Assembly: GCF_963675585.1 (NCBI RefSeq)
Contig: NZ_OY776414.1
Span: 3,265,001 to 3,329,000 of the forward strand
Direction: 5' to 3'
From: an uncultured Draconibacterium sp.
GTDB lineage: Bacteria > Bacteroidota > Bacteroidia > Bacteroidales > Prolixibacteraceae
DNA: 64,000 nt
Both the position numbers and the translations under genes were made by a program. Numbering within the stretch: position 1 is the first letter of the stretch; every line of letters begins with the position of its first letter. Below the pieces are notes generated by a model, which searched no databases, was not told the origin of the DNA, and saw only the letters and a program-made list of their open reading frames with translations. Of the stretch, positions 23,901 to 32,703 are shown one piece after another.

Positions 23901-25473
23901 AGTAGTACCTGGAAAACTAACGATTATTGATGCCAACAACATTGAATTTACCCCGAATGCGGATGCCAACCAGGTAATGCTTTCGGTTACCGGGAAACGT
24001 GGCGATCAGTCGTTCGCAAAAGATATGCTCGATTTAACTACCCGAATGTTAATCGGGGTGCGCACCATTTCGGTGAATTACAGCAGAAACGGAGGAAGTG
24101 TTTTACCCGGATATTTGCCGGAACCTACTTTGTTTGGTGCAGGCAACTACACCGGCGATCAGGTTTGGGGAGGTGTTCCGAATATTGAATCGAATTTTGC
24201 TCCCGGACTTCCATTTTTATTTGGTTGGCAAGACCGTGACTTTGCGGTTAAGGCAGCCGACAATGGATGGCTGACAATTGATTCAACATTAAATCAACCC
24301 TTCCAGATTCGGGAGAATGAAAAAATAAGTTTTAGAGCAATGCTTGAGCCGCTGCCTGATTTACGAATTGATGTAACGGCAAACCGTTCGTTCTCGAAAA
24401 ACATTACCGAATTTTACGATTACGATTATAGCTCCGGTTTATTTGTTGCCAACAGTACCACCGAATCGGGTAACTTTAGCATGTCAACTTTAACCTGGGG
24501 AACTGCATTTTTTGCCATCGGGAAAGAAGATGTAAGCAGTTCGGCGTCGTTTGAAAACTTAAAAGAATACCGCCAGGTTATTGCGCATCGTTTGGCAAAC
24601 CAACGTGGTTCCGGTGGTGGTTACGATCCATCTTCGCCACATTCGCAATACCCGGGTTATCCCGATGGATATGGCCCCAACTCGGTGGAAGTATTGGTTC
24701 CGGCCTTTTTAGCTGCGTATCAAAATAAAGATCCGGAAAAAGTTCCTTTAAGTTTGTTCCCATCGGTAAAATACATGCGTCCGAACTGGAGTATTCGTTA
24801 CGAGGGAATGGTATCTAAAATTCCGGGACTGAATAAAGTAATGCGTTCTTTAAATTTCCAGCACACTTACCGCTCGAGTTATAATGTTGGTTCGTATGCA
24901 ACCAACCTTAACTACGATGCCTCGTCTGACGGCTTAAGTTACATTCGCGATTTAGCCGATAACTTTGTTCCGGGTTACGATTTTAATTCGGTAAATATTG
25001 TAGAGGCTTTTAGTCCGCTAATCAACATGGATATAATGTGGCAAAGCGATTTAACCACACGTGCCGAAATTAAACGAAACAGAAACCTAAACCTTTCGTT
25101 TGCCAACAACCAGCTTACCGAAGTTATAGGTAGCGAATACATTTTAGGTGTTGGGTACCGTTTTACGCACATGGATTTAATTATTAAAACCAAAAATTCG
25201 CAACAGGCCTATTCAAACGATTTAAACATTCGTGCCGATGTTTCGTACCGGAAAAGTAAAACCATACTGCGCCAGTTAGACGATGACGACAACCAAATTA
25301 CGGCCGGTCAGGGGAACTTTACCATTAAAACATATGCCGATTACCGTTTAAGCGACAAATTCGAAATGCGTGTTTTCTACGATCGTATCATAAACGATCC
25401 GTTTACATCGCTATCGTACCGCACTGTAAATGCCAACTTTGGTGTTAGTTTCAGGTTTACTTTGTCGAATTAG
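17983..25473 (+). CDS. sprA: cell-surface protein SprA, T9SS outer-membrane translocon
   Basis: 2496 residues from the ATG at 17983 (a TTG at 17974 is also possible). Signal peptide near residues 5-30 (IFIALIVLAIPLKGLAQ). The length and opening motifs (NRIFGGNTINIQPQGYVEVSFGYQ cut by conserved gaps, FDFDEKIQMNVTGQIG, MRVNYNTEATFDYENK) are those of SprA. The middle has galactose-binding-like repeats (EYLEFWLMDPF, VEVWTNELRLSDFDESGGW), and the C-terminus ends in barrel strands (NANFGVSFRFTL). SprA is the giant 36-stranded outer-membrane channel through which T9SS substrates leave the periplasm. It is also needed for gliding in flavobacteria. Expected cargo in this window: the pectinase at 4233-7211. 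Confidence 0.95.
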   Translation: MTLNRSLRKIYFIFIALIVLAIPLKGLAQEAADIDTTGTLPYPFKDQPAFGYSDQDSGKIYLNKPGNIKYEIEYDPVLGQYVFYEKVGKLNYRLPQSMSLDDYIDYDFDKSVKEYWRTRSQLESMDQRGGLIPKLTIGSEAFNRIFGGNTINIQPQGYVEVSFGYQMNKTDNPSIPERLRKVPTFDFDEKIQMNVTGQIGTKMNMRVNYNTEATFDYENKMNLEYTGDEDEILKRIEAGNVSLPLNGSLITGASNLFGVKAEMQFGKLNVTTIFSQHKGESKTVETEGGAQVATFEISAANYDANRHFFLAQYFRDHYDEWLQNTAVPRSPITINKVEIWVTNKSSDFKESRNILAFQDLAEHDPNIYNNIPQFQQTPGLPYPQSIYPNNGANGLYSEMSNTYSDVRQVENITSTMAQFGQDFVGGTDFEKIEQARKLNESEYTINQTLGYVSLNTSLNADEVLAVAFNFTSNGQTYQVGEFSTDGIDAPNTLFLKLLKGTNLSPGKPTWNLMMKNIYNLNAYQLSSDDFELNVVYQNDSTGTYINYLPSSRITGHILLEVMRLDMLNKQLDPTKDGVFDYVEGITVNSNSGRIIFPVIEPFGKHLADSLIDQADIDQYTFQALYDSTRVKAEQDAEHNKFRLIGSYKGSSSSDISLGTLNLAQGSVKVTAGGQVLVENVDYTVDYTLGRVKVINQALLEAGTPISVSTESEDLFTMQRKTLMGTHLNYAFSDNFNIGATALYMHERPLTQKVDYGEDPISNLMYGLDMNYSTETMLITKALDKLPFYSTNTASSIDIEGEFAKLVPSSSKAIDGAAYIDDFEATKTAIDLRSRQSWMLASTPQYQNNLFPEANLNNTLEYGINRAKLAFYTIDPLFLRNNSLTPDHIKNDRDMQSNHFVREVFEQELFPEKEFSTGEPTNIAVLDLAYYPKERGPYNFDAAPSSYSAGVNADGTLKDPETRWGGIMREISTSDFETANIEYLEFWLMDPFVYDTMENLSGGDLYFNLGDISEDVLKDSRKAFENGLPTTAEVTNVDTTIWGRVSTLQSLVNAFDNTDISRQYQDIGFDGLNDEDEQKHFETYLEELKLKVNNDVYEEALKDPATDNFHYYRGTDYDDAEMDILSRYKKYNGPQGNSPTSTMSTESYPTSATTLPDVEDINRDNTLNEYERYFQYKVSIRKKDMVVGQNNITDKKHSRVELKNGTIGEVDWYQFKIPINSPDAAIGNINDFKSIRFLRMFMRGFEDSTIMRFATLDLVRADWRRYTGDISDVDATPSVDAEFEISAVSIEENGSRQPINYILPPGIDRVIDPANPQLKQLNEQSMVLKAMNIDQGDAKAAYKSLYMDFRRYKTLKMDVHAEEIEGYPLDDEEMYFFIRLGSDYNYNYYEYEVPLALTPPPPLNGYYNNDSEADRYIVWPDANRLNIPLEVFTNLKLERNDAMRAGGSNISIQDVYETTHADWNDGKNRVKIKGSPNLGNVQVFMMGVRNKRGQVNTGPKSVEVWTNELRLSDFDESGGWAANGRISTRLADLGSVTVAGRTRSAGFGSIDQNVNSRQLEDLNEIDVAASIDWGRFFPDKAGVRIPMYYGYSKSTVKPKYNPLEPDIEMDQSLSRLDTKQEKDSLKNLVQDVIERKSINFTNVKVEPQKQKEKTHLWDPENFAVTYSYNEISKHNVTTEYNVDKTHRVMFSYNYSSRSKLIEPLKKVKLLQKGPLKLIGDFNFYPLPTQISYRTDLYRKYNEKQSRNITNPNLILPATFEKDFLWNRYLDIRYDLTRSLKFDFSSRGTSRIDEPEGRINKNDDDYEWKRDSILTNLWDLGRPTLYNHSFNMTYQVPLRSIKALSFLSSSVRYSGTYEWIAGPLTEETINLGNTIANTRNLTITGNANLQSVYNKVPYFKEVDQKFKRTGRGRGSLNSRATGSRSRSTANQQPIQKKEIETFTQNLKLSANNVQKVNHKLNTKKVKVLITDVDGKVVPGKLTIIDANNIEFTPNADANQVMLSVTGKRGDQSFAKDMLDLTTRMLIGVRTISVNYSRNGGSVLPGYLPEPTLFGAGNYTGDQVWGGVPNIESNFAPGLPFLFGWQDRDFAVKAADNGWLTIDSTLNQPFQIRENEKISFRAMLEPLPDLRIDVTANRSFSKNITEFYDYDYSSGLFVANSTTESGNFSMSTLTWGTAFFAIGKEDVSSSASFENLKEYRQVIAHRLANQRGSGGGYDPSSPHSQYPGYPDGYGPNSVEVLVPAFLAAYQNKDPEKVPLSLFPSVKYMRPNWSIRYEGMVSKIPGLNKVMRSLNFQHTYRSSYNVGSYATNLNYDASSDGLSYIRDLADNFVPGYDFNSVNIVEAFSPLINMDIMWQSDLTTRAEIKRNRNLNLSFANNQLTEVIGSEYILGVGYRFTHMDLIIKTKNSQQAYSNDLNIRADVSYRKSKTILRQLDDDDNQITAGQGNFTIKTYADYRLSDKFEMRVFYDRIINDPFTSLSYRTVNANFGVSFRFTLSN

Positions 25474-25575
25474 TGTTAATCGAATCTTATTTTGAAAAAC
25501 AGATTGTAAAGCTTCTGACAACTTTATTTTGATTTTTCAAAAAAATGGGTTTTCTTGCAGTAGAATTTAGAAAAA

Positions 25576-25626
25576 ATGAAAAAAACAAATACAATATGGC
25601 TTCCGTGGTGGGGTCTTCTTACGTAA
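25576..25626 (+). CDS. trpL: trp leader peptide 1
   Basis: A 16-codon frame, MKKTNTIWLPWWGLLT, with three tryptophan codons (one single, one pair) in a position that must be transcribed ahead of trpE. CAATATGGCT (25592-25601), which spans the first Trp codon, is a perfect 10-bp complement of AGCCATATTG (25641-25650), the 1:2 stem of a classic attenuator. A ribosome stalled at the Trp codons would prevent that pairing. Peptide function is regulatory only. Confidence 0.85.
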   Translation: MKKTNTIWLPWWGLLT

Positions 25627-25673
25627 GTTAGGAGTTAAAGAGCCATATTGGTATTTTAAAGATATTCAAAAGG

Positions 25674-25700
25674 CCTGCTCCTAAAAAGAGCAGGTTTTTT
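25674..25700 (+). terminator. trp attenuator 1 (terminator hairpin)
   Basis: CCTGCTC (25674-25680), loop CTAAAAA, GAGCAGG (25688-25694), then six T residues. A competing antiterminator can form: AGGAG (25630-25634) with CTCCT (25678-25682), and GCC (25642-25644) with GGC, using the strand freed when the ribosome stalls on leader peptide 1. Confidence 0.85.
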
Positions 25701-25720
25701 ATTTTAAAGACAAAATTACA

Positions 25721-25777
25721 ATGATGATTAATAATAATATTTGGTGGTGGCGTAGCAACTTTTTACAAAATTCGTGA
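25721..25777 (+). CDS. trp leader peptide 2
   Basis: An 18-codon frame, MMINNNIWWWRSNFLQNS, with three consecutive tryptophan codons (25742-25750), located between attenuator 1 and trpE. GTAGC (25752-25756), just after the Trp codons, can pair with GCTAT (25789-25793). GCT at 25789-25791 is also needed for the alternative stem CGCT (25788-25791) with AGCG (25807-25810), so the two folds exclude each other. This is the logic of ribosome-mediated attenuation. Confidence 0.85.
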   Translation: MMINNNIWWWRSNFLQNS

Positions 25778-25808
25778 AGAGAGGTAACGCTATTGCATAA
25801 ACTGAAAG

Positions 25809-25843
25809 CGGCTCATCGAAATCACGATGAGCCGTTTTTTTTT
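25809..25843 (+). terminator. trp attenuator 2 (terminator hairpin)
   Basis: CGGCTCATCG (25809-25818), loop AAATCA, CGATGAGCCG (25825-25834), then nine T residues: a perfect 10-bp stem 31 bp before the trpE start. It would stop transcription when tryptophan is plentiful and leader peptide 2 is translated without stalling. Confidence 0.88.
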
Positions 25844-25874: not shown

Positions 25875-27284
25875 ATGGAAAAATTAACTTTTAAACCCGT
25901 CGTTCGGAAGCTGCTTGCCGACACAGTTACACCGGTAAGTATTTACCTGCGACTTCGTACGCTTTATCCAAAATCGATCCTTTTGGAAAGTTCGGATTAC
26001 CACGGAAATGAAAACGCCTATTCGTTTATTGCATTTCAACCCATTGCCTGTTTTACTGTGAACAACGGAGTGGCTGTAAAATCACTTCCGGGAAGAGAAC
26101 AGGAAGAATTTGAGCTTTCGAAAGAGCGGATTTTACACGACGAACTGGATAGCTTTTTTAAAACCTTTGATGTTGATTCGAATGAAATTAGTTTACCGGC
26201 CAATGGTTTATTTGGGTACGTAAACTTCGATGCCATCCAGCACTTCGAAAACATTAAATTCACATCAGACAAAATAGAGGAATACCAGATTCCTGAAGTG
26301 AAATACTGTTTTTACAAATATGTTGTAGCAATCGACCACCACAAAAACCAGATATTAATGGTGGAAAACCTGTTGGAAGGTGAAAGTTCGCAAATGGACT
26401 ACATCAACCATTTACTGGTTAACCTGAATTACACCACTGCCAGGTTTGAATTGTCGGGAGACGAAACTTCGAATATTACCGACGACGAATACAAACACAT
26501 GGTAACAAAAGGAAAAGAACACTGTTACCGTGGCGATGTTTTCCAGATTGTTTTGAGCCGCCAGTTTGCTCAGGAATTTAATGGCGACGATTTTAATGTT
26601 TATCGTTCACTTCGTTCCATTAACCCATCGCCATACTTGTTTTATTTCGATTACGGCGATTATAAAATATTTGGATCGAGCCCGGAGGCAGAGATCAGGA
26701 TCAAAGAAAACAAAGCCTACATTCACCCCATTGCCGGAACCTTTAAACGTACCGGAAACGATGAACAGGACCGCGAACTGGCAGCACAGTTGAGCAAAGA
26801 TCCAAAAGAAAATGCCGAGCATGTAATGTTGGTTGATTTAGCCAGAAATGACCTAAGCAGAAATGCGGATAATGTAGTTGTGGAAACGTATCGCGAAGTG
26901 CAGTTTTTCTCGCATGTCATTCATTTGGTGTCTCAGGTTTCGGGGCAAATAACCGACGATACCAACCTGATTAAAGTATTGGGCGAAACATTTCCGGCGG
27001 GTACACTTTCGGGCGCTCCAAAATACAAGGCTATGGAATTGATTGACAAATACGAAAATCAAAACCGCGGATATTACGGAGGTTGTATTGGTTATTTGGG
27101 CTTCGACCGAACTGTAAATCATGCCATCATGATTCGTTCTTTCCTGAGTAAAAACAGCAAACTTTTTTACCAGGCCGGTGCCGGAATTGTTGCCGACTCG
27201 AAAGAAGAAAGCGAGTTACAGGAAGTGAATAATAAACTAGCAGCGCTTAAAAAAGCCATTGAAATGGCACAGGAAATTAGTTAA
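25875..27284 (+). CDS. trpE: anthranilate synthase component I
   Basis: 469 residues, chorismate-binding fold. The N-terminal LLESSDYHG (about 38-46) matches the LLES element that forms the tryptophan feedback site. Catalytic-domain motifs: GDVFQIVLSRQF, FGSSPE, HPIAGTFKRTG, HVMLVDLARNDLSR, VLGETFPAGTLSGAPK and YQAGAGIVADS. With TrpG it makes anthranilate from chorismate and glutamine. It is the first gene of the operon and is controlled by the two upstream attenuators. The start is the ATG 31 bp after attenuator 2. Confidence 0.96.
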   Translation: MEKLTFKPVVRKLLADTVTPVSIYLRLRTLYPKSILLESSDYHGNENAYSFIAFQPIACFTVNNGVAVKSLPGREQEEFELSKERILHDELDSFFKTFDVDSNEISLPANGLFGYVNFDAIQHFENIKFTSDKIEEYQIPEVKYCFYKYVVAIDHHKNQILMVENLLEGESSQMDYINHLLVNLNYTTARFELSGDETSNITDDEYKHMVTKGKEHCYRGDVFQIVLSRQFAQEFNGDDFNVYRSLRSINPSPYLFYFDYGDYKIFGSSPEAEIRIKENKAYIHPIAGTFKRTGNDEQDRELAAQLSKDPKENAEHVMLVDLARNDLSRNADNVVVETYREVQFFSHVIHLVSQVSGQITDDTNLIKVLGETFPAGTLSGAPKYKAMELIDKYENQNRGYYGGCIGYLGFDRTVNHAIMIRSFLSKNSKLFYQAGAGIVADSKEESELQEVNNKLAALKKAIEMAQEIS

Positions 27285-27289
27285 CCAAC

Positions 27290-27362
27290 TGTCATTTCGA
27301 CGAGGAACGAGGAGAAATCTTTCCTTTTAAGATACAGATCTCTCATTACATTCGAGATGACA
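27290..27362. repeat. palindromic repeat in the trpE-trpG spacer
   Basis: The spacer is mostly an imperfect inverted repeat. It opens TGTCATTTCGACGAGG with GAGAAATCT further in, and closes with AGATCTCTC...TTCGAGATGACA. The ends TGTCAT/ATGACA are exact complements. A related half element is at 59603-59640. It looks like a small REP/MITE-type element and would fold in the trp mRNA. Confidence 0.7.
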
Positions 27363-27377
27363 ACAAATTTGAAACAA

Positions 27378-27947
27378 ATGAAAATATTAGTAATAGATAA
27401 CTACGATTCGTTTACCTACAATCTGGTACATGCAATCAAAAAAATATCCGGCCTGCCGGTCGATGTATTTCGCAACGACGAAATAACCCTAGAAGAAATT
27501 GACAAATACGATAAAATTGTTCTTTCGCCCGGACCTGGTATTCCGGAAGAAGCAGGTTTGCTATTGAATATTATAAAAGAATACGGACCAAAAAAAAGCA
27601 TGCTCGGAGTATGTTTGGGACATCAGGCAATTGGAGAAGCATTTGGAGGAAAACTGCGCAACATGAATCGAGTTTTGCACGGAATTGCAACACCGGTAAT
27701 GCTTACCAAAAACAAATCGGTTTTATTCAACGGATTACCCGATACATTTGAGGTGGGACGTTACCATTCGTGGATTGTGCGTTCGGAACAATTGCCACAG
27801 TGTTTCCAGGTTACCAGCTACGACAAAGATGGTTTAATAATGTCGATGAAACACAAAAAATACGATGTGGAAGGTGTTCAGTTTCACCCCGAATCGGTAC
27901 TGACACCGCTGGGCGAAAAAATGATTGAAAACTGGCTGAATAAATAA
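27378..27947 (+). CDS. trpG: anthranilate synthase component II (glutamine amidotransferase)
   Basis: 189 residues from the ATG at 27378 (MKILVIDNYDSFTYN). The upstream in-frame ATG at 27357 lies inside the palindromic repeat and gives a non-conserved lead of seven residues, so it is rejected. Class I amidotransferase triad: Cys in GVCLGHQAIGEAFGG (about 76-90), His-Pro-Glu in VQFHPESVLTP near the C-terminus. It releases ammonia from glutamine for TrpE. Confidence 0.95.
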   Translation: MKILVIDNYDSFTYNLVHAIKKISGLPVDVFRNDEITLEEIDKYDKIVLSPGPGIPEEAGLLLNIIKEYGPKKSMLGVCLGHQAIGEAFGGKLRNMNRVLHGIATPVMLTKNKSVLFNGLPDTFEVGRYHSWIVRSEQLPQCFQVTSYDKDGLIMSMKHKKYDVEGVQFHPESVLTPLGEKMIENWLNK

Positions 27948-28060
27948 TAGAGAACAGCATTCACCGCAACTCATAAAAATGCAACAGTAACAAACGGATC
28001 AATACAACTCAGGAAGAAAGTCTTAGAGTTTCTGACTTCCGGCTTCAAACTTTTTTTGAA

Positions 28061-29047
28061 ATGAAAAAAACATTAGAATACTTATTTGCAGGAAACAAAC
28101 TTACCCGCGAGCAGGCAAAATCCTCTCTATTGGAAGTGGGGAAAGGAGAGCACTCGGAAGCAGAATTTGCCTCTTTTCTCACGGTGTTTAAAATGCGTCC
28201 GCTTCAGTCCGAAGAACTGGCCGGCTTTCGCGATGCAATGGTGGAACTAAGCGCAAAAGTAGATTTATCTGAATACCAGGGAATGGACATTGTTGGTACC
28301 GGTGGCGATGGGAAAAATACCTTTAATATTTCTACACTTTCGTGTTTTGTTGTTGCAGGAGCAGGTGTAAATATCACCAAACACGGAAATTATGCTGCTA
28401 CCTCAAACAGTGGTTCGTCAAATGTTTTGGAATATTTGGGATACAAATTCAGTAACGACATTGAAAAATTAAAAAACGACCTGGACAAAGGAAATTTCTG
28501 CTTTTTACATGCACCACTTTTTCACCCGGCAATGAAACACATTGCTCCGGTGCGCAGAGCACTTAAAGTACCCACTTTCTTTAATATTCTGGGACCAATG
28601 ATCAATCCTTCGTCGCCAAAATACCAGGTACTTGGAGTAAATAATAACGAAAATTTTGAGCATTATAAAAATGTGTATAAAACACTGGATATTGAGTATG
28701 CCATTGTAAACAGTGTTGATGGTTACGATGAAATTTCATTGACCGATGCTACTCATTTCGCTTCAAAAACAAAAGACATATTAATACCACCCGCCGGTTT
28801 TGGAATGGAAAAGGTAAGCCCCAATAAATTATATGGTGGTGATTCGGTGGAAGATGCAGCCAAAATTTTTATTGATATTCTGGAAGGAAAAGGAACACCC
28901 GAACAAAATAATGTTGTGTTGGCAAATGCAGGACTGGCATTACAAGTGGTACATCCCGAAAAAGAATTGACCGAGTGTGTTGAAATGGCAAAAGAATCAT
29001 TACAGAGCGGAAAAGCACTAAATAAGTTAACGGCAATAACAAAATAA
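28061..29047 (+). CDS. trpD: anthranilate phosphoribosyltransferase
   Basis: 328 residues. Motifs: DIVGTGGDGKNTFNIST (about 81-97, PRPP pyrophosphate loop), ITKHGNYAATSNSGSSNVLE (about 107-126, anthranilate site) and FLHAPLFHPAMKHIAPVRR. It attaches anthranilate to phosphoribose. The KHGN followed by Y rather than R is familiar from Bacteroidota TrpD. The 113-bp spacer before it is unremarkable. It is separated from trpC by only two bases. Confidence 0.95.
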   Translation: MKKTLEYLFAGNKLTREQAKSSLLEVGKGEHSEAEFASFLTVFKMRPLQSEELAGFRDAMVELSAKVDLSEYQGMDIVGTGGDGKNTFNISTLSCFVVAGAGVNITKHGNYAATSNSGSSNVLEYLGYKFSNDIEKLKNDLDKGNFCFLHAPLFHPAMKHIAPVRRALKVPTFFNILGPMINPSSPKYQVLGVNNNENFEHYKNVYKTLDIEYAIVNSVDGYDEISLTDATHFASKTKDILIPPAGFGMEKVSPNKLYGGDSVEDAAKIFIDILEGKGTPEQNNVVLANAGLALQVVHPEKELTECVEMAKESLQSGKALNKLTAITK

Positions 29048-29049
29048 AA

Positions 29050-29832
29050 ATGAATATTCTTGAAAAAATTATAGAAACAAAAAAAGGAGAAGTCGCCAAT
29101 CAGAAAAAAGTGGTTAGCATTGCGCAACTCGAGAAATACCCCGCATATTCGAGAAAATGCAATTCGCTAAAAGCAAATCTTTTAAAAACCGGGGCTTCGG
29201 GAGTTATTGCTGAATTTAAACAAAAATCGCCATCAAAAGGTGAAATAAATTTTGCAGCAAAAGTAGAGGATGTAACCAAAGCTTATGTAGAAGCCGGAGC
29301 ATCGTGTCTTTCGGTACTAACTGACTACGAATACTTTGGTGGAAATTTAGCAAACCTGGTGAAAGCCCGCGAAACCAATCCTGAGATACCCATTCTACGC
29401 AAAGATTTTATGATTGACACCTACCAGATTGTGGAAGCCAAAGCGTATGGTGCCGATGTAATTTTACTTATTGCGGCTTGTCTTGACAAAGAGCAGGCGC
29501 TGAAACTGGCAAAAAAAGCCAAAGAACTTGGCCTCGATGTTCTCATGGAGATTCACAATGCCGAAGAACTGGAAGTAGTTAACGATTATGTTGATATTGT
29601 TGGTGTAAACAACCGCAACCTGAAAACTTTTGAAGTAAGCGTTGAAACATCAGTGGAGCTTTCGAAACTAATTCCTGAAAAATTTGTAAAAATATCGGAG
29701 AGTGGTTTAAGCGGTGCAAAAGAGATTCACTATTTGAGAGAAAATGGATTTAAAGGATTTTTGATTGGTGAAACGTTTATGAAAACCGACAATCCGGGAG
29801 AGGCATGTAAACAATTTATTTCAGAATTATGA
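29050..29832 (+). CDS. trpC: indole-3-glycerol phosphate synthase
   Basis: 260-residue TIM barrel. Motifs: IAEFKQKSPSKGEI (about 52-65, substrate-binding lysine), LSVLTDYEYFGGN, PILRKDFMIDTYQI (catalytic lysine), VGVNNRNLKTFEV and SESGLSG. It closes the ring of carboxyphenylaminodeoxyribulose phosphate to indole glycerol phosphate. It overlaps trpF by four bases (ATGA), so the two are translationally coupled. Confidence 0.95.
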   Translation: MNILEKIIETKKGEVANQKKVVSIAQLEKYPAYSRKCNSLKANLLKTGASGVIAEFKQKSPSKGEINFAAKVEDVTKAYVEAGASCLSVLTDYEYFGGNLANLVKARETNPEIPILRKDFMIDTYQIVEAKAYGADVILLIAACLDKEQALKLAKKAKELGLDVLMEIHNAEELEVVNDYVDIVGVNNRNLKTFEVSVETSVELSKLIPEKFVKISESGLSGAKEIHYLRENGFKGFLIGETFMKTDNPGEACKQFISEL

Positions 29833-30452
29833 GAGAATTAAGAATAAAGGTTTGTGGAATGAAGTTCACCGAAAACAGGGAGCAGGTAGAACAACTGGGT
29901 GTAAATTTTCTGGGATTCATTTTTTACGAGCCGTCAAAACGTTTTATTGGAGAAACTCCCGAACCTGGACTTTTCAACTCCGAAAAAACGAAAGTTGGAG
30001 TTTTTGTAGACGAAAATGCATTCGAAATTTTGGGTTTAGCAAAAAACCTGGGATTTGAATATGTTCAGCTTCACGGAAAGGAAAATCCAAAAACCTGCGG
30101 GATACTAAAAAGCCAGGGATTAAAAATAATTAAAGCATTTAGTGTAAACGAAAAGTTCAAGTTTTCCGAAACCAAAGCCTGGGAAAAGGTAGCCGATTTC
30201 TTTTTATTCGATACCAAATCGAGTCTGCCGGGTGGTTCAGGGAAAAAATTCGATTGGAAAGTTCTGGATAAATACCAGGGACACACACCATTTTTCCTGA
30301 GTGGTGGAATTGGTCCCGACGATGCAAAGGCCATTAAAGAAATCAACCATCCAAAACTAACAGGAGTTGATTTGAACAGCGGTTTTGAAGATGCTCCGGG
30401 GTTAAAAAACATTGAGAATTTAAAACGGTTTATAAACGAATTAAAAAAATAA
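29829..30452 (+). CDS. trpF: phosphoribosylanthranilate isomerase
   Basis: 207-residue TIM barrel. Motifs: IKVCGMKFTENREQV (catalytic cysteine near residue 9), FLGFIFYEPSKRFI, VQLHGKENP, FLFDTKSSLPGGSGKKFDW (catalytic aspartate) and FFLSGGIGPDDA, then GVDLNSGFEDAPG. It performs the Amadori rearrangement before TrpC. It is a separate gene rather than a TrpCF fusion. Confidence 0.95.
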   Translation: MRELRIKVCGMKFTENREQVEQLGVNFLGFIFYEPSKRFIGETPEPGLFNSEKTKVGVFVDENAFEILGLAKNLGFEYVQLHGKENPKTCGILKSQGLKIIKAFSVNEKFKFSETKAWEKVADFFLFDTKSSLPGGSGKKFDWKVLDKYQGHTPFFLSGGIGPDDAKAIKEINHPKLTGVDLNSGFEDAPGLKNIENLKRFINELKK

Positions 30453-30453
30453 A

Positions 30454-30555
30454 CACCCCCCATTTCGAAAATGGTCCGGTCAGGCCGTTCCATTTTTCTC
30501 AATTGTCCCCCTACAGGGGGACAGGAGTTCGTCAACTGACGGACGACAGGGGGTA
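30454..30555. repeat. palindromic repeat in the trpF-trpB spacer
   Basis: Opens CACCCCCCATTTCG and closes with GACAGGGGGTA, so the ends can pair (CCCCC/GGGGG). An inner hairpin GTCCCCCTACAGGGGGAC lies at about 30508-30525. A second copy fills the trpB-trpA spacer with the same order of blocks (ACCCCCCATTTCG, GGTCA.GCCGT, CTCAATTGTCCCCCT, AGGGGGACAG). Confidence 0.8.
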
Positions 30556-30581
30556 AAAAAAGAAGAACCAAAAAAAACATA

Positions 30582-31763
30582 ATGAAATATCAAGTTGACG
30601 AAAAAGGATATTACGGCGAATTTGGCGGGGCATGGATTCCCGAAATGATGTACACCAACATCGACGAACTAAAACGCCGTTATTTGGAAATTATAGAATC
30701 GGTGGAATTTAAAAGCGAATTCGACCAACTTTTAAAAGATTATGTTGGCCGCCCGTCGCCACTCTATTTTGCCAGCCGTTTAAGCGAACATTACGGTTCA
30801 AAGATTTACCTGAAACGCGAAGATCTGAATCACACCGGCTCGCATAAATTAAACAATACCATCGGGCAAATTCTATTGGCACAAAAGCTTGGAAAAACCC
30901 GTATTATTGCTGAAACCGGAGCAGGCCAGCACGGTGTTGCAACGGCAACTGTTTGTGCTTTAAAAGGAATTAAATGTATTGTATACATGGGAGCTCTGGA
31001 TGTTTCGAGGCAGGCACCAAACGTAAAAAAAATGAAAATGCTGGGTGCCGAGGTGATTCCGGTTCACAGTGGCAATAAAACCTTAAAAGACGCTACAAAC
31101 GAAGCCATGCGCGACTGGATTGCCAATCCGGTAGATACCCATTATATTATTGGTTCGGTGGTTGGACCACATCCCTACCCCGATATGGTGGCCCGTTTTC
31201 AATCGGTAATTAGTGCCGAAATGAAAAAACAACTTTTGGAGCAAACAGGGTCGGAACTCCCAACGCGTGTTTTGGCCTGTGTGGGTGGTGGAAGTAATGC
31301 CGCCGGTGCCTTTTACCATTTTCTGGAAGACGAAGCAGTGGAATTAATTGGCGTGGAAGCAGCCGGGAAAGGAATTGACACCGAAGAAACTGCAGCCACA
31401 TTAACAGTGGGTTCGCCGGGTGTTTTACATTCGAGCAAAACCATGTTAATGCAAAACAAAGACGGGCAAATTACCGAACCCTATTCGATTTCGGCAGGTT
31501 TGGATTATCCGGGAATTGGACCAATGCATGCCAACCTGCACAAAACAGGTCGTGCTAAATTTTTGGCTGCCACCGACGAAGAAGTTCTTCAGGCAGTGTT
31601 ATTGATCACTCAAAAAGAAGGAATTATTCCTGCACTTGAATCGGCGCATGCACTGGCAGTACTCGATAAAATTAAGATGAATCCTGATGATGTAAACGTA
31701 ATTAACCTTTCGGGAAGCGGCAACAAAGACATGGAAACCTACTTAGATTATTTTGGATATTAG
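30582..31763 (+). CDS. trpB: tryptophan synthase beta chain
   Basis: 393 residues. PLP lysine in HTGSHKLNNTIGQ (Lys near 88), glutamate in IAETGAGQHGVATA, phosphate loop CVGGGSNAAGAF and the C-terminal NLSGSGNKDMETY. It condenses indole with serine to tryptophan in the alpha2beta2 complex with TrpA. It is of the TrpB1 type by length and motifs. It is flanked on both sides by palindromic repeats and is therefore not tightly packed with trpA as in many operons. Confidence 0.96.
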   Translation: MKYQVDEKGYYGEFGGAWIPEMMYTNIDELKRRYLEIIESVEFKSEFDQLLKDYVGRPSPLYFASRLSEHYGSKIYLKREDLNHTGSHKLNNTIGQILLAQKLGKTRIIAETGAGQHGVATATVCALKGIKCIVYMGALDVSRQAPNVKKMKMLGAEVIPVHSGNKTLKDATNEAMRDWIANPVDTHYIIGSVVGPHPYPDMVARFQSVISAEMKKQLLEQTGSELPTRVLACVGGGSNAAGAFYHFLEDEAVELIGVEAAGKGIDTEETAATLTVGSPGVLHSSKTMLMQNKDGQITEPYSISAGLDYPGIGPMHANLHKTGRAKFLAATDEEVLQAVLLITQKEGIIPALESAHALAVLDKIKMNPDDVNVINLSGSGNKDMETYLDYFGY

Positions 31764-31771
31764 ATCAGCTG

Positions 31772-31892
31772 TACCCCCCATTTCGGAAGTGTCGCGGTCA
31801 AGCCGTGCCACTGTCCTCAATTGTCCCCCTGAATTAGGGGGACAGTTGAAGCTGCAGACTCGATTAATCGAGCAAAGCGCAAACAAGGGGTA
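31772..31892. repeat. palindromic repeat in the trpB-trpA spacer
   Basis: Second copy of the element at 30454-30555: opens ACCCCCCATTTCGG, inner stem GTCCCCCTGAATTAGGGGGAC, closes CAAGGGGTA. The right part differs from copy one (it contains a further small palindrome CTCGATTAATCGAG). It would fold in the trp mRNA ahead of the trpA start. Confidence 0.8.
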
Positions 31893-31920
31893 GATTTACA
31901 ATACTTAATAAAAACAAATT

Positions 31921-32703
31921 ATGAACAACAGAATCAACCAGCTTTTTGAAAAGAAAAGCAAAAACATATTCTCGGTATATTTTACAGCGGGATTTCCGAA
32001 TTTAAACGATACGGTAGAAATAATCCAGCAATTGGAGAAAAATGGAGTTGACCTCATCGAAATAGGAATGCCATTCTCCGATCCAACTGCCGATGGCCCA
32101 ACCATTCAACGCAGTAGCGAGATTGCACTAAAAAACGGAATGAGTTTAGAACTGCTCTTTACTCAATTGCAAACCATTCGCGAATCGGTTTCTATTCCTT
32201 TGGTTTTAATGGGCTATTTTAATCCTGTATACCAATATGGAGTAGAAAATTTCTGCAAAAAATGCAATGAAATAGGAATTGATGGCACCATTCTCCCCGA
32301 CCTTCCCTTAGACGAATTTGAGGCGCAGTATAGAACGACCTTCGAAGAAAACAATCTTCATAATATTCTGCTGATTACACCTCAAACTTCGGAAGCCAGA
32401 ATCAAACAAATAGACGAAGCCAGTTCGGGTTTTATTTATATGGTTTCGTCATCAGCAACAACCGGAGCAGGGAAAAAAGTGGAAGATTTTCAGAAAGATT
32501 ATTTTGAACGCGTATTAAGCATGAATTTGAAAAATCCGACCGTAATCGGCTTTGGAATTTCGGACAATGCAACCTTTGAAAATGCCTGTAAATATGCCAA
32601 CGGTGCAATTATAGGAAGTGCTTTTGTGAGTTCTTTTAATGCAGAAGTTATTTTGCAGGAATCAATTGCACAATTTGTTAAAAAGATACTTTCATCCAAT
32701 TAA
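31921..32703 (+). CDS. trpA: tryptophan synthase alpha chain
   Basis: 260-residue TIM barrel. Catalytic glutamate and aspartate in DLIEIGMPFSDPTADGP (about 43-59), followed by VLMGYFNPVYQYG, DGTILPDLPLDE, YMVSSSATTGAGK and VIGFGISD. It cleaves indole glycerol phosphate and channels indole to TrpB. Last gene of the operon; no strong terminator follows directly. Confidence 0.95.
   Translation: MNNRINQLFEKKSKNIFSVYFTAGFPNLNDTVEIIQQLEKNGVDLIEIGMPFSDPTADGPTIQRSSEIALKNGMSLELLFTQLQTIRESVSIPLVLMGYFNPVYQYGVENFCKKCNEIGIDGTILPDLPLDEFEAQYRTTFEENNLHNILLITPQTSEARIKQIDEASSGFIYMVSSSATTGAGKKVEDFQKDYFERVLSMNLKNPTVIGFGISDNATFENACKYANGAIIGSAFVSSFNAEVILQESIAQFVKKILSSN

Follow-up and report, generated by a model that had tools for sequence, protein, structure and literature searches.

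Attenuation at the trp leader of Escherichia coli operates through stalling of the ribosome at Trp codons, a 1:2 stem, an antiterminator and a terminator. This leader (Rfam RF00513) is a single unit, and the locus described here scores 18.2 against its model, the cut-off being 41. For the Bacteroidota, a Bacteroid-trp leader RNA (Rfam RF01692) is listed in a table row of PMC2864571. Serial arrangements of regulatory elements have been described in other bacteria: tandem T-box riboswitches are found on trp operons of Bacillota (PMC12452182, available text), the Salmonella mgtCBR operon has tandem attenuators that the available text of PMC3641672 calls a singular example, and some rimP leaders include a second terminator in tandem, according to the available part of PMC2965389.

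The window (the whole 64,000-nucleotide stretch of DNA analysed, from an uncultured Draconibacterium sp.) includes a trpEGDCFBA operon that is preceded by two short ORFs in series, each followed by its own intrinsic terminator (Table 1). Pfam matches agree with the gene order, and the relatives of its TrpE place the genome in the Prolixibacteraceae; the TrpE relatives and tree bear out the initial annotation, which had assigned the operon to the Bacteroidota. A long plus-strand ORF, which we take to be sprA-like, ends at 25473, about 100 bp upstream of unit 1 and about 400 bp upstream of trpE. The initial annotation had proposed two tandem Trp leader peptides with one attenuator each, and both ORFs and both terminators were found in place. 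The 7-bp terminator stem followed by T6 that it had described for unit 1 is CCTGCTC/GAGCAGG (25674-25680 with 25688-25694), which extends to 13 bp when the A-U flanks are included, and the 10-bp stem followed by T9 of unit 2 is CGGCTCATCG/CGATGAGCCG, or 15 bp with its flanks. The perfect 10-bp pairing that it had noted in unit 1 corresponds to the 1:2 stem CAATATGGCT/AGCCATATTG, and P1 pairs CAATATGGC with GCCATATTG. The 1:2 stem of unit 2, GUGGUGGCGU/ACGCUAUUGC, has 10 bp including G-U pairs and encloses an inner hairpin. Nucleotides 25576-25710 and 25722-25845 fold with z scores of -4.71 and -7.29, respectively, and for each of them none of 200 dinucleotide shuffles folded as well.

Table 1. 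Features of the leader region and the trp operon in the window
Feature	Position	Strand	Basis
Promoter-like -7 box TTTCTTGC, 25 nt upstream of unit 1 ATG	25551..25558	+	pattern match, post hoc
Unit 1 leader ORF MKKTNTIWLPWWGLLT	25576..25626	+	ORF list, codon positions
Unit 1 P1 stem, 5' strand AAATACAATATGGC	25587..25600	+	
Unit 1 Trp codons	25597, 25606, 25609	+	
Unit 1 antiterminator strand TTAGGAG, together with GCC at 25642-25644	25628..25634	+	pairing tests, mask folds; absent from aligned count
Unit 1 P1 stem, 3' strand GCCATATTGGTATTT, one bulged G	25642..25656	+	
Unit 1 intrinsic terminator, T6	25668..25700	+	
CTCCTAA, antiterminator partner inside unit 1 terminator	25678-25684	+	
Unit 2 leader ORF MMINNNIWWWRSNFLQNS	25721..25777	+	ORF list, codon positions
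Unit 2 Trp codons	25742-25750	+	
Unit 2 stem 1:2, 5' strand, over Trp codons	25744..25753	+	
Unit 2 antiterminator strand A, TCGTGA, over stop codon	25772..25777	+	
Unit 2 stem 1:2, 3' strand ACGCTATTGC	25787..25796	+	
Unit 2 intrinsic terminator, T9	25804..25843	+	
Unit 2 antiterminator strand D, TCACGA, terminator loop and upper 3' arm	25822..25827	+	
trpE, G, D, C, F, B, A genes	25875..32703	+	ORFs, Pfam

From this organization we infer a transcription start, ribosome stalling, termination and multiplied readthrough as follows. A single transcript would begin just upstream of unit 1 and run through both attenuators, which would respond alike to one and the same signal. Each leader would be translated as RNA polymerase transcribes the switch region behind it. 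When charged tRNA-Trp is ample the ribosome would get to the stop codon of either leader and the terminator would form, and when it is scarce the ribosome would stall at the Trp codons. A stall in unit 1 would block P1, so that TTAGGAG and GCC could pair with GGC and CTCCTAA in the 5' arm and loop of the terminator; a stall in unit 2 would free TCGTGA to pair with TCACGA in the loop and 3' arm of the terminator. The idea of an alternative pairing in both units, already put forward in the initial annotation, stood up to analysis, except that the best-supported pairing in unit 2 is that of TCGTGA with TCACGA and not that of the 1:2 partner strand with the terminator 5' arm. Since trpE would be reached only by RNA polymerase that has got past both attenuators, the repressed level should be the product of two readthrough values. 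The initial annotation had suggested a multiplied repression ratio or two thresholds, and unit 1 could be tuned to a different degree of Trp shortage.

Folding with masked nucleotides, for which a ribosome footprint of 15 nt before and 12 nt after was assumed, is consistent with such a switch. When the transcript ended in the terminator loop of unit 1, a mask on any of its Trp codons made the antiterminator the best fold (-16.2 kcal/mol), and P1 and the terminator formed when the mask was at the stop codon or there was no mask. In the full-length transcript the terminator was the best fold under every ribosome mask, so antitermination would have to be kinetic. In unit 2 of the window A:D was the best fold only when the third Trp codon was masked. 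With regard to the start of the transcript, promoter-like boxes matching a pattern drawn post hoc are found upstream of unit 1 in 53 of the 92 distinct loci with the unit 1 motif (2.1 being expected from shuffles). This strict pattern, drawn from sequences already viewed, is present in 0 of the 73 spacers between units, which speaks weakly against a start of trpE transcription downstream of 25700, one of the two observations that the initial annotation had named as refuting its reading. An internal promoter between the units, suggested by a loose motif in 21 of the 73 spacers, appears doubtful as the stricter post hoc pattern has no match there.

The antiterminator pairings were analyzed in related loci by means of shuffle tests, all of which, for both units, ignore relatedness among loci. 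The unit 1 antiterminator duplex within loci scored 15.74 in an alignment-free test on 61 distinct pairs (mean of 300 shuffles, 13.32; maximum, 14.33), and the loop with the 3' arm was without excess in the same test. In an anchored, ungapped count of 30 distinct pairs, 83.3% of the unit 1 cells were paired as compared to 76.8% in shuffles, and there were 26 double-changed cells versus 11.7, a value that none of 1000 shuffles attained; that double changes occurred in 4 pairs was ordinary, 142 of 1000 shuffles giving as many. A count on 22 rows aligned by MAFFT gave 75.0% paired and no excess (309 of 500 shuffles as high), but part of these rows look shifted, and the alignment-free and anchored tests were made instead. 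P1 is near-invariant in the 22 tandem rows and consequently has no covariation signal there. In unit 2, the 1:2 stem and the terminator have 42 double-changed cells versus 18.9 (0 of 500 shuffles as high), and RNAalifold recovered the inner hairpin and the terminator and did not recover the 1:2 stem. The A:D duplex of unit 2 scored 15.36 in 76 loci, a set other than the 76 tandem loci described below, versus a maximum of 13.77 in 200 shuffles, and 15.08 in 24 distant loci versus a maximum of 13.35 in 500 shuffles. In 26 aligned rows 92.9% of the A:D cells were paired versus 89.7% when shuffled, a value above that of every shuffle, and sliding the partner reduced the value to 55% or less. When 33 further loci of other lineages were tried, a terminator was found in 29, and in these the pairing was above all 500 shuffles both with the loop and 3' arm and with the loop and 5' arm; lineages differ as to which of the two runs longer. 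Trp leaders of other Bacteroidia (L222-L250) seemingly have two antiterminator layouts, one using the loop and 5' arm and the other the loop and 3' arm.

To collect related loci, the best 80 of 576 relatives in a TrpE scan were kept, and an exact unit 1 pattern was searched for in 140 family genomes, 96 of which matched, although a few of these matches look like chance. Seven fetched loci without a trpE hit were dropped, and the 136 with a unit 1 motif before trpE were reduced to 92 distinct loci. The tandem arrangement is present in 76 of these, down to 61% TrpE identity. An in-frame unit 1 ATG is found in all 76, the nearest one lying 18, 21, and 27 nt before the Ile-Trp codons in 47, 28, and 1 loci, respectively. 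Unit 1 has three Trp codons in 74 of the tandem loci and four in 2. P1 is separated from the Trp codons of unit 2 by 94-175 nt in 73 loci and by 715-727 nt in the other three. Since most of P1 and TGGTGGG was prescribed by the search pattern, selection partly accounts for their uniformity within the 92 loci. Among loci fetched by TrpE without this filter, two tandem ones (L191 and L192) have the diverged unit 1 leaders NWSWWQ and IWSWWR, and L197-L200 have P1 variants; as read by eye, that of L199, CGATATGGC with GCTATATTG, mostly pairs, and that of L200, CAATGTGGC with GCAACGTTG, has one mismatch. In the Prolixibacter group (e.g., L041, L042, and L045) three bases are missing and IWLWWG is still in frame. 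The other 16 of the 92 loci have neither a nearby ATG nor a terminator, indicating that the start codon and the terminator go together, a link that, like the sequences, their conservation and the covarying pairings, is observed directly.

Relatives have thus retained Trp codons, stems and terminators in either unit, contrary to the lack of conservation that the initial annotation had named as refuting its reading, and the antiterminator pairings covary (in unit 1 by two tests, the aligned count giving none). Both units consist of a short ORF with codons for the regulated amino acid before a biosynthetic operon, an intrinsic terminator downstream of the leader (detected for unit 1 in 75 of the 76 tandem loci, L114 having a weakened one) and a mutually exclusive antiterminator that covaries, the aligned count for unit 1 excepted. 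Judging from these sequence features they are most likely ribosome-mediated Trp attenuators in series, and the retention of the double unit in related genera suggests a working two-step control rather than an accident. We consider the full proposal, in which the two attenuators would be read in series on one transcript starting just before unit 1, to be highly probable.

In three loci (L008, L021, and L024) that had been candidates for lacking unit 1, it was located about 1 kb upstream, before two genes that are inserted between the units, some 250-910 nt ahead of trpE. The inserted genes of L024, the only ones run against Pfam, matched NTP_transf_2/Polbeta and HepT-like domains, which is the make-up of MntA-HepT pairs; the second inserted ORF of L021 is shorter. 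In these loci unit 1 should control the inserted pair and unit 2 should control trpE. The end of such an inserted gene is visible in L018, where the upstream DNA is too short to judge unit 1, and L013 and L029 have stretches that by eye resemble remains of the second inserted gene. The possibility that the unit 1 motif is a dispersed regulatory site was discarded, the only other exact copy in its own genome being inside a coding ORF. The pattern matched 15 of 295 genomes of the order, 13 of them outside the family, and a reversed control pattern matched 4; we judged the 13 matches to be probably due to chance.

The loci that retain the unit 1 hairpin without its start codon or terminator bear on the question of what this unit does. 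Compact leaders of this kind, found in Sunxiuqinia, Gaoshiqia, Mangrovibacterium and others, account for the 16 non-tandem loci (L034-L040, L043, L070, L073, L111, L134, L135, L155, L171, and L172). The hairpin, composed of P1, the inner loop UUCCGUGGUGGGG and a covarying P2, stands 52-59 nt upstream of the Trp codons of unit 2, and there is no in-frame ATG within the preceding 62 nt (L035 has one 85 nt upstream). Its loop in the compact leaders of Sunxiuqinia and Mangrovibacterium is GUGGUGGGG. Twelve of the 16 have identical 28-base and 15-base stretches while P2 has changed on both strands (e.g., L111 versus L034). Of these 43 identical positions, 24 were prescribed by the search pattern, but it was the TrpE scan that had initially yielded 10 of the 16 loci. 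Downstream of the hairpin, 12 of the 16 compact loci and 63 of the 76 tandem loci have a run of at least five T, making a pause or a weak terminator possible. In L073 and L201 the Trp frame of unit 1 is broken, TGGTGG being instead in frame with an ATG inside ATATGG; non-AUG starts in the compact leaders are disfavoured since stop positions vary and these two loci break the frame. A codon-counting leader does not explain the conservation in the compact loci, and the unit 1 hairpin may have an additional, translation-independent role. We tentatively entertain, as possible but not as the probable case, that the hairpin is a trp-leader RNA element of the Prolixibacteraceae that works independently of translation, either by binding a ligand or protein or by causing a programmed pause before unit 2, the compact form being bare and the tandem form having gained the start codon and terminator, or the compact form having lost both. 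If so, conversion between a structured RNA and a leader-peptide attenuator has taken place within one family. The stronger version, in which unit 1 would be mainly such an element or a pause hairpin with its ORF and terminator secondary and unit 2 would sense Trp, could draw on the bare hairpins, their identical stretches and the broken frames; we regard it as unlikely, because the tandem loci have the ATG, the Trp codons and the terminator jointly, the three-base difference of the Prolixibacter group preserves the frame, and the unit 1 antiterminator covaries in the alignment-free and anchored tests.

Two further explanations would leave the operon under the control of one unit, and ribosome-mediated attenuation by both still accounts better for the observations. 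The terminator of unit 1 might merely end transcription of the upstream gene, trp being controlled by unit 2 alone, as the closeness of the plus-strand ORF ending at 25473 would allow; yet there is a promoter-like box between this ORF and unit 1, unit 1 is present even in L013, L024, L027, and L029, in which the first long ORF upstream lies on the minus strand, and a plain terminator would not preserve the ATG, Trp codons and antiterminator, all of which makes this very improbable. It is equally hard to credit that one unit is a relic and that control of the operon lies solely with the other unit or with transcription starting between them: although L193 and L200 seem to have unit 1 only (a unit 1-like leader and terminator, with no unit 2 leader seen), 76 distinct loci keep both units, each with covarying pairings, and the promoter-like box is present in 0 of 73 spacers.

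The distribution of leaders in other lineages was surveyed by a TrpE-anchored scan of 64 loci, 30 of them from genomes picked for an RF01692 match and two of them compact (L070 and L073). RF01692 had been tried as a detector of tandems, giving one match in each of 34 of 295 genomes of the class, and was abandoned because, in this search as in that of the 140 family genomes, it detected just one unit in the genome of the window and so cannot exclude tandems elsewhere. The 61 loci with enough upstream DNA comprised 48 with one Trp leader, 11 with none passing the filter and 2 with a second candidate (L072 and L229), judged spurious; five of the 11 (L058, L069, L073, L075, and L076) show one leader in other scans. 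Within this sample a single leader is thus the norm, which is not proof of a rule. A quick TrpE tree of 97 rows separated 27 single-leader rows and one unscored row from 69 rows with a support of 84; the latter are made up of 49 tandem and 15 compact rows, 2 rows that have just unit 1 and 3 unscored rows. The compact rows need three changes on this tree, which does not separate gain from loss and in which long rows, e.g., L073, are uncertain.

No description of tandem trp leader peptides was found in the open-licence literature searched, which takes in few subscription journals, including the available part of PMC4833913, in agreement with the initial annotation, whose author knew of none. While the principle of attenuation is known, its use by leader peptides twice in series for one amino acid, as proposed from these sequences, appears to be new. 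The closest described family is RF01692, which shares with both units the occurrence in Bacteroidota before trp genes, Trp codons within the 1:2 stem and a terminator downstream. Both units align with its model in register; with 37.2 bits for unit 1 and 26.9 bits for unit 2 they miss the cut-off of 49, which 14 of 140 family genomes pass, and membership is therefore not claimed. The locus differs from RF01692 in having the unit twice, and the A:D antiterminator of unit 2 is outside the RF01692 model. The mgtCBR leader also has two leader ORFs in series on one operon, but there the signals are two, ATP and proline, and there are not two intrinsic terminators, as indicated by the comparison with metE in the available text of PMC3641672. 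Two leader-peptide attenuators responding in series to the same signal would constitute a natural cascade, and the existence of single, double and compact leaders among relatives makes the gain from the second attenuator measurable with natural variants. None of the 60 family genomes searched gave a Trp_repressor match, whereas the control detected E. coli and B. subtilis; a stack of translation-coupled switches may therefore supply the regulatory range that elsewhere comes from a repressor. The tandem T-boxes, as described in the available text of PMC12452182, are with the mgtCBR leader the nearest precedents; they comprise two whole switches in series, each with a terminator, and sense tRNA-Trp charging on a trp operon. 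T-boxes bind the tRNA directly and have no leader ORF, whereas the units described here have leader ORFs, and no T-box was among the matches obtained. The parallel between these arrangements in Bacillota and Prolixibacteraceae suggests a common pressure on the costly amino acid Trp.
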